This document shows positions 48,868-51,253 of a DNA stretch of 64,000 nucleotides, piece after piece. The number at the start of each line of letters is the position of its first letter. The stretch's first letter is position 1. The translations under genes and the position numbers were made by a program. The DNA comes from Acinetobacter lwoffii. GTDB taxonomy: Bacteria > Pseudomonadota > Gammaproteobacteria > Pseudomonadales > Moraxellaceae. The DNA is taken from assembly GCF_019048525.1 (NCBI RefSeq), contig NZ_CP077369.1, positions 2,604,001-2,668,000 on the forward strand, read 5' to 3'. The notes below the pieces were generated by a model. That model did not search any database. It saw only the letters and a program-made list of their open reading frames with translations, and was not told the DNA's origin.

Positions 48868-48945
48868 TTCAACTCCTGAGCATGCGTTTAGGCTGGCTAT
48901 TGTTTTAGCAACTGGCAGTTTGATCCCTCAATCTTTCCAGTTTAA

Positions 48946-48959
48946 TGCAACTTGTTGCA
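48946..48959. promoter_or_regulatory. PadR operator candidate, proximal to fadH
   Basis: A near palindrome TGCAACTTGTTGCA (TGCAAC / GTTGCA arms) 79 bases upstream of the fadH start. It shares the TGCAACnnGTTGCA core with the larger palindrome at 48981-49008. Confidence 0.65.
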
Positions 48960-48980
48960 CTAATTTATATGCCAGAATTG

Positions 48981-49008
48981 ATTATTATGCAACATGTTGC
49001 ATAATAAT
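48981..49008. promoter_or_regulatory. PadR operator candidate, 28-bp perfect palindrome
   Basis: A perfect 28-base palindrome centred on TGCAACATGTTGCA, 25 bases before the padR start. PadR repressors bind ATGTnnACAT-like palindromes; the core here contains ATGCAACATGTTGCAT. Both fadH and padR promoters would be covered. The palindrome is seen; its binding protein is inferred from context. Confidence 0.75.
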
Positions 49009-49033
49009 CCCGAGTCACTTTTTTGAGACGTTT

Positions 49034-49582
49034 ATGTCTTTAGCGCATGTTTTATTGACCAGCCTGATTGAAAAACCTAGCACCGGAATCGAACTGGCTC
49101 GCCGTTTTGACCGTTCCATGGGCTTCTTCTGGAATGCCACTCATCAGCAGATTTATCGCGAGCTGAATGCCATGCTGCAAAAAGGCTGGATTTCGACGAT
49201 AGAAGAGGAAGACTCGAATAGCCGCAAAAAGACTTATCAGGTAGAACGTCTGGGCCGCGAAGAACTGGCCAACTGGATGTTGCAACAGAGCCCACCAGCA
49301 CAATTACGTGAAGAGCTGATGGTACGTTTACGTGCCGAAGCCCAACTTGGTGGCAATAACACTTTGGCAGAGCTGGAACGCCATCTGGAACTGCATAAAG
49401 AGAAATTGAAAACCTATCAGCAGATTTTTGCCAAGGACTTTGCTCAAGCGGACGAAACTGACCGTACCTTATATATTCATAAAATGATTCTGCAACTGGG
49501 AATTGATCAGGAACTGGGTTGGATTTCCTGGCTGGAACAGGTTATTCCGCGACTGCAACAATTTGACGCACAACAATTATAA
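49034..49582 (+). CDS. PadR-family transcriptional regulator
   Basis: A 182-residue PadR regulator: winged-helix (LAHVLLTSLIEKPSTGIELA, QQIYRELNAMLQKGWIS, KTYQVERLGREELANWM) and a C-terminal helical dimer domain (AELERHLELHKEKLKTYQQI). ATG 49034 (MSLAHVLL) is the natural start; the frame is open further upstream but no domain is there. It autoregulates its operon in most known PadR cases. It is followed by a hydrolase (14-base gap) and a sirtuin gene (19-base gap), so all three form an operon divergent from fadH. Confidence 0.9.
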   Translation: MSLAHVLLTSLIEKPSTGIELARRFDRSMGFFWNATHQQIYRELNAMLQKGWISTIEEEDSNSRKKTYQVERLGREELANWMLQQSPPAQLREELMVRLRAEAQLGGNNTLAELERHLELHKEKLKTYQQIFAKDFAQADETDRTLYIHKMILQLGIDQELGWISWLEQVIPRLQQFDAQQL

Positions 49583-49596
49583 ATACGGAGACACAC

Positions 49597-50529
49597 ATGC
49601 CCTTTTATCGCATGCCCGATGGTGAACAGCTGTTTGTACGCGAATATGGTCGGGGACAGCCGGTACTGGTACTCTCTGGACTTGGCATGCTGAGCTGGCA
49701 ATGGAAAGCTTTTCTCTATCCGCATCAGAAAAATTTCTGTTTCATTATTCCAGAATGGCGCGGCTTTGGGGCTTCCAGTCGCTGTAAAATTCCGCAAGAT
49801 CTCGATGCAATTTCCAGTCACTGGCTGGATGTGCGTTCAGTTCTGACCCAGCTAGAATTAGATCAAGTCATCGTCATTGCCTATTCCATGGGTGCAACCA
49901 CCGCAATGCACGGCATGCATTATGACAACTTTGCCAGTCAGATTTCTGCTTATTTGCACATTGATCAGACTCCCAAAATTCCGGTCGATGATGCCTGGGA
50001 TTTTGGTCTTTTTGGTCCACGTTATCAGGAATTTATCGACATCCTGCAGCAGCTCTCTGTCCTACTTACGCAATATCAGCAAGTTGAATTGATCCGTGAT
50101 CTTGACGTTTCTGTCCGTAAACAAATTGCCGCCCTATGGCTAAAGTTTATTCAGCTACAAAATCAACAAAAATATAGTCTGAAAGCTTTCGAATTCATTT
50201 TGAATCAACCTCGCCTGCAAAGTCTGTTAATGCCTTCCAGCCGGGTGGATTATATGGCGTGGTATATCAACAATTATTTATACCATCGTGAGGATTACCG
50301 AGAGGCATTGGCCCAGCTCAGCTGTTCGGTGACTTTCTTTAGCGGCGTACAATCCAAGTTGTATCCTTTTGAAGGTCAGCGCCTGATTGCAGAAAGCCTG
50401 CCTCAGGCCAAACAGATACTTTTCAGCAAATCCGGCCATACACCTTTACTGACTGAACCGCTAAAATTTGCCCGAGAACTTGGCATCTTTTTAAATGAAA
50501 ATTCACAATCTAGCACTTCAGCTGCCTAA
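49597..50529 (+). CDS. Alpha/beta hydrolase in the padR operon
   Basis: A 310-residue alpha/beta-hydrolase: oxyanion segment LVLSGLGMLSWQWKAF, IIPEWRGFGASS, nucleophile box AYSMGATTA and histidine in SGHTPLLTEP. Substrates could be an ester, thioester or lactone; context with fadH suggests acyl compounds. It starts 14 bases after padR with a GGAG site and overlaps nothing. No signal peptide. Confidence 0.86.
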   Translation: MPFYRMPDGEQLFVREYGRGQPVLVLSGLGMLSWQWKAFLYPHQKNFCFIIPEWRGFGASSRCKIPQDLDAISSHWLDVRSVLTQLELDQVIVIAYSMGATTAMHGMHYDNFASQISAYLHIDQTPKIPVDDAWDFGLFGPRYQEFIDILQQLSVLLTQYQQVELIRDLDVSVRKQIAALWLKFIQLQNQQKYSLKAFEFILNQPRLQSLLMPSSRVDYMAWYINNYLYHREDYREALAQLSCSVTFFSGVQSKLYPFEGQRLIAESLPQAKQILFSKSGHTPLLTEPLKFARELGIFLNENSQSSTSAA

Positions 50530-50548
50530 AGATTCAGGAGATAGAACA

Positions 50549-51253
50549 ATGAAAAAGTTGGTGGCTTTTTCCGGTGCAGGCATGAGCGCCGAAAGTGGCA
50601 TTCATACTTTTCGCGACAGTGATGGACTTTGGGAACAATACCGGATTGAAGAGGTCGCGACACCTGAAGCTTGGGCCAAAAATCCAGAACTGGTGCAACG
50701 CTTTTATAATGCCCGCCGTAAAAACATTCTGGAAGCACAGCCGAATGCCGCACATCAATTAATTGCCGATCTTGAAAATGAGTTTGATGTGCATGTAATC
50801 ACCCAGAATATTGATGACTTGCATGAACGTGCCGGCAGCTCCAAGGTGATCCATTTACATGGCAATATTCGCCTGGCCAAAAGCTCAGGCCCCGATGCAC
50901 AAAGCACAACCGAGTTTTATCCAATTGAAGGCTCTGAATTAGATTTAAATCAACACTTTTGTAAGGCAGGCTATCCGCTGCGTCCTCATGTGGTCTGGTT
51001 TGGCGAAGCCGTACCCGCGTATGAAGAAGCTCAAGACTGTGTACAGGATGCCGATATTTTCGTGGTGATTGGCACCAGCCTTCAAGTTTATCCAGTTGCC
51101 GGGTTAATTCATGAGATTCCTGCGAAATGTCCGGCCTATTACATCGACCCGAAAGCCGAGCAGCAGCATTTGCCTGCACAGTTTTACAAAATCCCCCAAA
51201 ACGCGACCGATGGCATGCAAACACTGCTAGGTTTACTGAAATCCGGGAATTAA
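50549..51253 (+). CDS. Sirtuin-type NAD-dependent protein deacylase
   Basis: A 234-residue sirtuin: FSGAGMSAESGIHTFRDSDG (NAD site), TQNIDDLHERAG, the catalytic histidine HLHGN, RPHVVWFGEAVP, and IGTSLQVYPVAG. It carries YNARR, the YxxR pair linked to removal of acidic acyl groups (succinyl, malonyl) in SIRT5/CobB-type enzymes. Between HLHGN and RPHVVWFGE only one cysteine is found, so the four-cysteine zinc site of most sirtuins is missing. ATG 50549 with AGGAG is the start. Third gene of the padR operon. Confidence 0.92.
   Translation: MKKLVAFSGAGMSAESGIHTFRDSDGLWEQYRIEEVATPEAWAKNPELVQRFYNARRKNILEAQPNAAHQLIADLENEFDVHVITQNIDDLHERAGSSKVIHLHGNIRLAKSSGPDAQSTTEFYPIEGSELDLNQHFCKAGYPLRPHVVWFGEAVPAYEEAQDCVQDADIFVVIGTSLQVYPVAGLIHEIPAKCPAYYIDPKAEQQHLPAQFYKIPQNATDGMQTLLGLLKSGN

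Follow-up and report, generated by a model that had tools for sequence, protein, structure and literature searches.

A predicted AphA-class PadR switch for 2,4-dienoyl-CoA reductase in Acinetobacter lwoffii, with a zinc-less sirtuin as a lineage-specific addition

Classical PadR/VanR-type divergons are organized by a small, local and autoregulated regulator, and FadR and PsrA, which are known to control fatty-acid breakdown in bacteria, belong to families other than PadR. Here we describe a locus of Acinetobacter lwoffii, contained in a stretch of 64,000 nucleotides (NCBI RefSeq assembly GCF_019048525.1, contig NZ_CP077369.1, positions 2,604,001 to 2,668,000; hereafter the window), in which padR is divergent from fadH, the gene for a 2,4-dienoyl-coenzyme A (CoA) reductase. 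As in PadR/VanR-type divergons, a local regulator stands divergent from an enzyme gene and self-control would be expected. The locus differs from them in that its predicted target lies in the beta-oxidation of unsaturated acyl-CoA, its putative operators are twinned and phased, and a further site stands in trans at a second fadH. We consider it likely that this PadR is an AphA-class repressor of dienoyl-CoA reductase that is probably released by unsaturated acyl-CoA, and that the sirtuin gene found in the same operon is a lineage-specific rider.

AphA of Vibrio shares with the window PadR the pair of PadR and Vir_act_alpha_C domains, a full-length match (1yg2, E 5.5e-29) and a common HQQ(I/V)YREL stretch. 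According to the portion of the source available, chromatin immunoprecipitation sequencing of AphA yielded the consensus ATGCAA-N4-TTGCAT, and AphA uses paired sites cooperatively (PMC6855506); an operator of this type is likewise present near the genes described here, where the likeness is one of sequence alone. The two differ in reach, AphA being a quorum regulator with many targets, whereas the genomes examined here hold 0-5 exact sites each and those that could be placed lie mostly at fadH. Literature searches, which returned sources in part and cover few subscription journals, gave no description of a PadR-fadH or PadR-sirtuin link, Acinetobacter included. The available portions of papers on PrhP of Ralstonia (PMC6804342) and a Burkholderia PadR (PMC8128862) do not mention a dienoyl-CoA reductase. 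One candidate report of a fadH-PadR link (PMC12914303) was set aside, the matching terms in its accessible text being the cofactor FADH and a surname, while another, as far as its text was available, gives the name fadH to an enoyl-CoA hydratase, reports that fadH of A. oleivorans DR1 is up on hexadecane and lists PadR genes separately (PMC12472514).

Twin palindromes between fadH and padR

The divergon comprises the following features, in window coordinates:

46843-48867, minus strand: fadH, 674 amino acids, 2,4-dienoyl-CoA reductase with Pfam domains Oxidored_FMN and Pyr_redox_2
48946-48959: putative operator I, TGCAACTTGTTGCA, starting 4 nucleotides (nt) past the predicted fadH -10
48964-48992, minus strand: predicted fadH promoter, TTGCAT (48992-48987), 17 nt, TATAAA (48969-48964)
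48978-49005, plus strand: predicted padR promoter, TTGATT, 16 nt, CATAAT, straddling operator II
48980-49009: putative operator II, a perfect palindrome of 30 base pairs (bp) with the core TGCAACATGTTGCA at 48988-49001
49034-49582, plus strand: padR, 182 amino acids, AphA-class PadR regulator with PadR and Vir_act_alpha_C domains

FadH matched the structure of E. coli 2,4-dienoyl-CoA reductase over its full length (1ps9, E 3.5e-283), with an old-yellow-enzyme domain in the N-terminal half followed by a pyridine-nucleotide reductase domain, and none of the 25 NCBIfam equivalogs shown reached its cut-off. By sequence, the product is a 2,4-dienoyl-CoA reductase, with a predicted NADPH-dependent reduction of dienoyl-CoA. 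The PadR protein scored 41 bits against PF03551 (cut-off 27) and 67.4 bits against PF10400 (cut-off 22.4), which places a winged helix before Vir_act_alpha_C, the domain arrangement of the AphA-like subfamily. Its nearest solved relative is PDB entry 8ioi, for which a literature search found no paper naming the entry, and three A. lwoffii records among the best 80 of 594 relatives carry a PadR 98-99% identical to that of the window.

The initial annotation had described two palindromes in this intergenic region, and both are real and lie where it placed them, although the second extends over 30 bp (48980-49009) and not 28. The 3,466,826-base genome has just two exact copies of TGCAACNNGTTGCA, both of them in the fadH/padR gap, and none of the reversed control pattern. 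Sites at up to two mismatches show no excess in the window (4 versus 4.89 expected), and the palindromes are therefore unusual because the genome's only two exact copies sit here, not because of their density in the window. A chance origin of the palindromes was rejected on the basis of this genome-wide uniqueness together with conservation inside and outside Acinetobacter. Operator II agrees with the AphA consensus at 12 of 12 positions and operator I at 11 of 12. Operator II contains two elements of the predicted promoters, the -35 of fadH and the padR spacer.

Conservation in Acinetobacter and beyond

Even sampling of a larger group gave 59 Acinetobacter genomes, the window's own included (G and L numbers below designate individual genomes and loci). 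A padR orthologue was found in 52 of them, and in every one of these 52 fadH was divergent from padR with two sites (at most 2 mismatches) in between, spaced by 42 bp in 38 genomes, 41 in 7 and 49-55 in 7. When the 27 two-site divergons from outside the genus described below are added, operator spacing is 37-42 bp in 66 of 79, 49-55 bp in 13 and 43-48 bp in none. The two classes differ by about one helical turn, which is the pattern that two dimers meeting on one helix face would give, in a count that kinship inflates.

The predicted promoters recur with the operators. In the fadH direction, TTGCA(N)-N17-TATA(A/T) is present in 51 of the 52 genomes, with N16 in the remaining one; the TTGCA hexamer coincides with the end of operator II in all 52, and operator I begins 3-4 bp past the -10 in 45 genomes and 11-17 bp past it in 7. 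A consensus promoter scanner, whose stricter hexamer rules exclude this pattern, listed no fadH promoter, so that conservation is the basis of the call. Towards padR, 46 of the 52 genomes have a TTGNNN/YATAAN pair spanning operator II, and the scanner's promoter-like sites, the predicted padR promoter of the window among them, are not above chance (3 found versus 4.0 expected).

Exact sites numbered 0-5 per genome across 58 genomes of the genus, as against 0-1 for the reversed pattern. Twenty extra sites, chosen among the places listed, were inspected: 13 stand before an unlinked second fadH (fadH2; the divergent gene is fadH1), two before nmo/FabK-like genes (G009, G023), two before acyl-CoA dehydrogenase genes (G014, G054) and three in reading frames. 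By locus, the sites before an acyl-CoA dehydrogenase are those of L127 and L128, and those before a FabK-like flavoenzyme are in L124 and L133. A site precedes fadH2 in 42 of the 53 genomes that carry this gene, at a distance of 20-37 bp from the aligned start of the gene; 39 of these sites are exact and 3 have a single mismatch. The stretch further upstream held no site at up to one mismatch in any of the 53. The 11 genomes whose fadH2 has no site comprise all 8 of the window's clade together with G034 and the padR-less G001 and G044. Among padR-bearing genomes these losses amount to two events on the tree, on which the window's clade is placed as having lost its site. A wider regulon in the window's own genome was considered and rejected, since the AphA consensus at up to one mismatch gives 18 places (reversed, 3), and of the 15 inspected, two belong to the divergon, 12 fall within or overlap reading frames and one stands 20 bp downstream of fadH2. 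This last, a one-mismatch AphA-type site (L219:1501-1516; C1:1880911-1880926 of the same genome), stands before a tRNA-like stretch, and fadH2 of that genome no longer has an upstream site.

Beyond the genus, a PadR alignment with one genome per species was used, in which the best 80 of 594 relatives comprised 41 Acinetobacter loci, overlapping in part with the 52-genome set, and 39 others, mainly from Burkholderiales and Rhodocyclales with one Agitococcus, one Arthrobacter and one unplaced. Within the DNA examined, up to 4 kilobases (kb) on each side of padR, fadH is divergent from padR in 29 of these 39 outside loci, 27 with two sites and 2 with one. The other ten have fadH upstream in the same direction (4), an nmo (nitronate-monooxygenase/FabK-like) gene (5) or none of these (1). 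Where fadH lies upstream in the same direction, it is preceded by sites with no more than one mismatch in three loci and by a two-mismatch site in the fourth, from Arthrobacter. A control stretch in and behind padR matched the site, at up to two mismatches, in 2 of the 80 loci. Seventeen outgroup genomes were also scanned, and as these had been picked for carrying padR, most of them with known sites, the informative part is how few sites lie elsewhere. They hold 34 exact sites, 0-3 per genome, versus 9 for the reversed pattern, and 28 of the 34 belong to fadH, in the divergon or apart from it, to snoaL (Cupriavidus), or to operons of nmo alone or of snoaL and nmo (Cupriavidus, Ralstonia). Of the remaining six, five were inspected, and four of these are in reading frames and one is between two genes that we take to be kdpC and kdpD. 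A second draw, of 369 genomes from Gammaproteobacteria, the window's own class, gave 8 with a PadR relative at E 1e-15, the window's own included. Of the seven others, one (L158) has padR adjoining an nmo-like gene, two (L163, L164) have it beside a zinc-type sirtuin gene, and three (L159, L160, L162) have palindromes of the form TATGCA-N6-TGCATA just upstream of PadR genes with very different neighbours, which suggests that self-control through such operators may be common in the PadR subfamily.

Neighbouring genes and the zinc-less sirtuin

Three further genes flank the divergon:

46245-46655, minus strand: SnoaL/ketosteroid-isomerase-like gene, downstream of fadH on the same strand
49597-50529, plus strand: alpha/beta hydrolase, 310 amino acids, esterase-like fold
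50549-51253, plus strand: zinc-less Sir2-family gene (sir2), 234 amino acids, lineage-specific rider

The SnoaL-like protein has as its best solved match 3mso, named 'steroid delta-isomerase' (E 6.5e-42). Its gene accompanies fadH in 36 of the 41 Acinetobacter loci and occurs in 22 of the 39 outside loci, 18 of those with fadH, and in Cupriavidus (L308) twin sites stand before it. Judged by these neighbourhoods, the stable core of the system is PadR and FadH, with the SnoaL-like isomerase and, in some lineages, the FabK-like flavoprotein. Between fadH and the SnoaL-like gene (46656-46842), a repeat-like stretch (cctctcc...ggagagg) was spotted by eye.

The gene order given by the initial annotation, with fadH and padR divergent and padR, hydrolase and sirtuin tightly packed, is borne out by the coordinates, the gaps being 14 bp between padR and hydrolase and 19 bp between hydrolase and sir2. 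In the window's clade, eight genomes in which sir2 is packed behind padR and the hydrolase, the three genes are likely co-transcribed. In 51 of 52 genomes padR is followed by the hydrolase with a gap of -1 to 143 bp; the hydrolase was not found in G034, and its reading frame stops early in G027. Residues S97, H281 and D123 are invariant in 25 aligned copies, and the Ser-His pair looks intact. The structural model (pLDDT 91) has esterases as its nearest solved folds (TMq 0.68, 16-19% identity), all of the 50 listed matches lying at TMq 0.70 or below with one feruloyl esterase lower in the list, and is thus best described as generic esterase-like, a fold that does not settle the substrate.

The sirtuin scored 160.7 bits against PF02146, and no other Sir2-family gene was found in this genome. 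Its nearest solved relatives by sequence are the CobB entries 6rxj and 1s5p, and its model (pLDDT 89.8) lies nearest to Sir2-Af and CobB entries (TMq 0.80-0.86); the model therefore points to an ordinary Sir2 fold, which leaves the substrate unsettled. As in CobB/SIRT5-type sirtuins, the NAD-binding core (GAGMSAESGI, TQNIDDLHERAG and HLHGN) is invariant, here in 11 aligned copies. Unlike them, the window-type protein is without the zinc tetrad. As the initial annotation had recognized, the four-cysteine zinc site is absent, with 0-2 cysteines in that segment in all 38 Acinetobacter copies read (40 loci, including L090-L119, were given, of which one was without the gene and one unmatched by the search expression).

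The position of sir2 is far less constant than that of fadH. Of the 52 padR genomes, 13 have it immediately after the hydrolase, at a distance of at most 262 bp (41 bp or less in 12; the copy of G054 is split). In 4 it stands on the same strand but 1.7-2.8 kb away, in 17 it is elsewhere in the genome, and 18 have no orthologue, 9 of these with only a 29-34% identical relative. For 16 of the 17 genes located elsewhere, the 500 bp upstream were checked and held no site with one mismatch or fewer, the best having two mismatches (G051). Adjacency changes state five times on the FadH and PadR tree. Neither hydrolase nor sirtuin matches were found in the examined DNA of the 39 outside loci among the best 80 of 594 relatives, the hydrolase being seen only in Acinetobacter. 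Membership of the sirtuin in the core unit was rejected on its adjacency in 13 of 52 genomes, its siteless unlinked copies and its absence from the outside loci, and on these distributions the sirtuin is a lineage-specific rider, which a minority of lineages, the window's among them, carry in the operon. As a separate observation, an AphA-class PadR gene is followed by a zinc-type sirtuin gene in two genera of another gammaproteobacterial family (L163:4167-5513, L164:5131-6931), a family in which two genomes were reached.

The initial annotation had interpreted the locus as a regulatory unit that senses a lipid or aromatic-derived acid and adjusts both dienoyl-CoA reduction and protein acylation. 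Of this, the operators prove conserved and the link to unsaturated-fatty-acid degradation holds, with sites at two fadH paralogues and the fadH half recurring in other genera; deacylation as a built-in function is not supported by the distribution of sir2. Its proposed comparative search for a fadH-padR-hydrolase-sirtuin block likewise recovers the fadH half as conserved and the sirtuin half as not. Going by these comparisons, the case for the fadH half is better than could be known from the window alone, and the sirtuin half is a local arrangement.

Predicted regulation and its alternatives

We propose that a PadR dimer would bind the palindromes ATGCAAC-NN-GTTGCAT, with one dimer on operator I and another on operator II, some four helical turns away. 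Bound PadR would repress fadH and its own operon, padR-hydrolase(-sirtuin), and probably also the isomerase-like gene downstream of fadH. Repression is predicted because operator II covers the -35 of fadH as well as the padR spacer and operator I lies just past the fadH -10. PadR would be released by a metabolite that arises when unsaturated fatty acids are broken down. We infer that an unsaturated or dienoyl acyl-CoA is the most likely one, since the core proteins can all act on double bonds of acyl chains. In most of the genus the same PadR would also act in trans on the unlinked second fadH; the window's clade has lost the site there.

PadR might instead activate fadH, as AphA does at tcpPH, and AphA-class proteins can indeed activate according to the available text (PMC6855506); with operator I past the -10 and operator II over the -35 in 52 of 52 genomes, and the fadH2 site also directly following a -10-like TA.TAT, we regard activation as quite unlikely. 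That the palindromes serve another regulator and PadR is a bystander seems highly improbable: palindromes alone name no protein, and padR-less genomes do hold exact sites, but these palindromes fit the AphA consensus and travel with padR in other genera, and in the two of seven padR-less genomes that still have fadH1 no site precedes it (best 4 mismatches).

The nature of the inducer and the role of the sirtuin invite two other explanations. An aromatic acid, the classical type of PadR ligand, could be sensed, with FadH serving as an old-yellow-enzyme detoxifier of enones. The domain in its N-terminal half, the esterases nearest to the hydrolase model with a feruloyl esterase further down, and the ability of PadR to sense p-coumaric acid, described in the accessible part of PMC12628177, would all suit this explanation, which we nonetheless find unlikely given the full-length orthology of FadH, the second fadH as trans target, and the sites before acyl-CoA dehydrogenase and FabK-like flavoenzyme genes in some lineages. 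Alternatively, PadR could deliberately co-regulate dienoyl-CoA reduction and lysine deacylation and so match acyl-CoA supply to protein acylation. The 19-bp gap in the window, an adjacency that extends to the deep branches G014 and G054, and the PadR-sirtuin pairs of L163 and L164 speak for such coupling, which is rendered decidedly improbable by the genomes with sir2 elsewhere or without an orthologue, the absence of sites before the unlinked copies, the repeated changes of adjacency and the sirtuin-free outside loci.

Several observations weigh against PadR as a repressor of dienoyl-CoA reductase. Five of the seven padR-less genomes (G001, G019, G025, G044, G049) hold 1-2 exact sites at six places; that of G019 (L125), the one inspected, falls in a reading frame, and those of G001 and G044 do not precede their fadH genes. 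Three padR-less genomes still have fadH2, and one of these, G029 (65% complete), has a one-mismatch site before it, while the window's clade and G034 have padR yet no fadH2 site. In the 369-genome draw, the 7 other genomes, with more distant PadR relatives, have no fadH within about 5 kb on each side, and in this draw and the best 80 of 594 relatives the gammaproteobacterial fadH divergon is seen in Acinetobacter and Agitococcus only. The loci are related and partly repeated between datasets, so that the counts are not independent events. The predicted fadH promoter is a pattern that we defined and not a scanner match, AphA both activates and represses and the sign of regulation is read here from site position. 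What the sequence shows is the sites with their conservation and position, their association with padR and the trans site; binding, repression, promoters, ligand and co-transcription are inferred.

The FabK-like flavoprotein is presumably tied by family to FabX. In Helicobacter pylori, FabX is a dehydrogenase/isomerase for unsaturated fatty acids, according to the available part of the source (PMC8626469). It is possible, as a tentative extension, that an old PadR regulon for acyl-chain double bonds, sensing unsaturated acyl-CoA, unites one or two FadH enzymes, the ketosteroid-isomerase-like protein and the FabK/FabX-like flavoprotein in Acinetobacter, Agitococcus and many Betaproteobacteria, and that the A. 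lwoffii clade, having dropped fadH2 from it and holding a zinc-less sirtuin in the operon, ties NAD-dependent deacylation to the breakdown of unsaturated fat. If the PadR repressor proposed here is borne out, a PadR/AphA-type switch for dienoyl-CoA reductase, extending from Acinetobacter to Burkholderiales and Rhodocyclales, would add to the points at which the use of unsaturated fat is controlled, and PadR genes so far annotated by family only would gain a predicted function.

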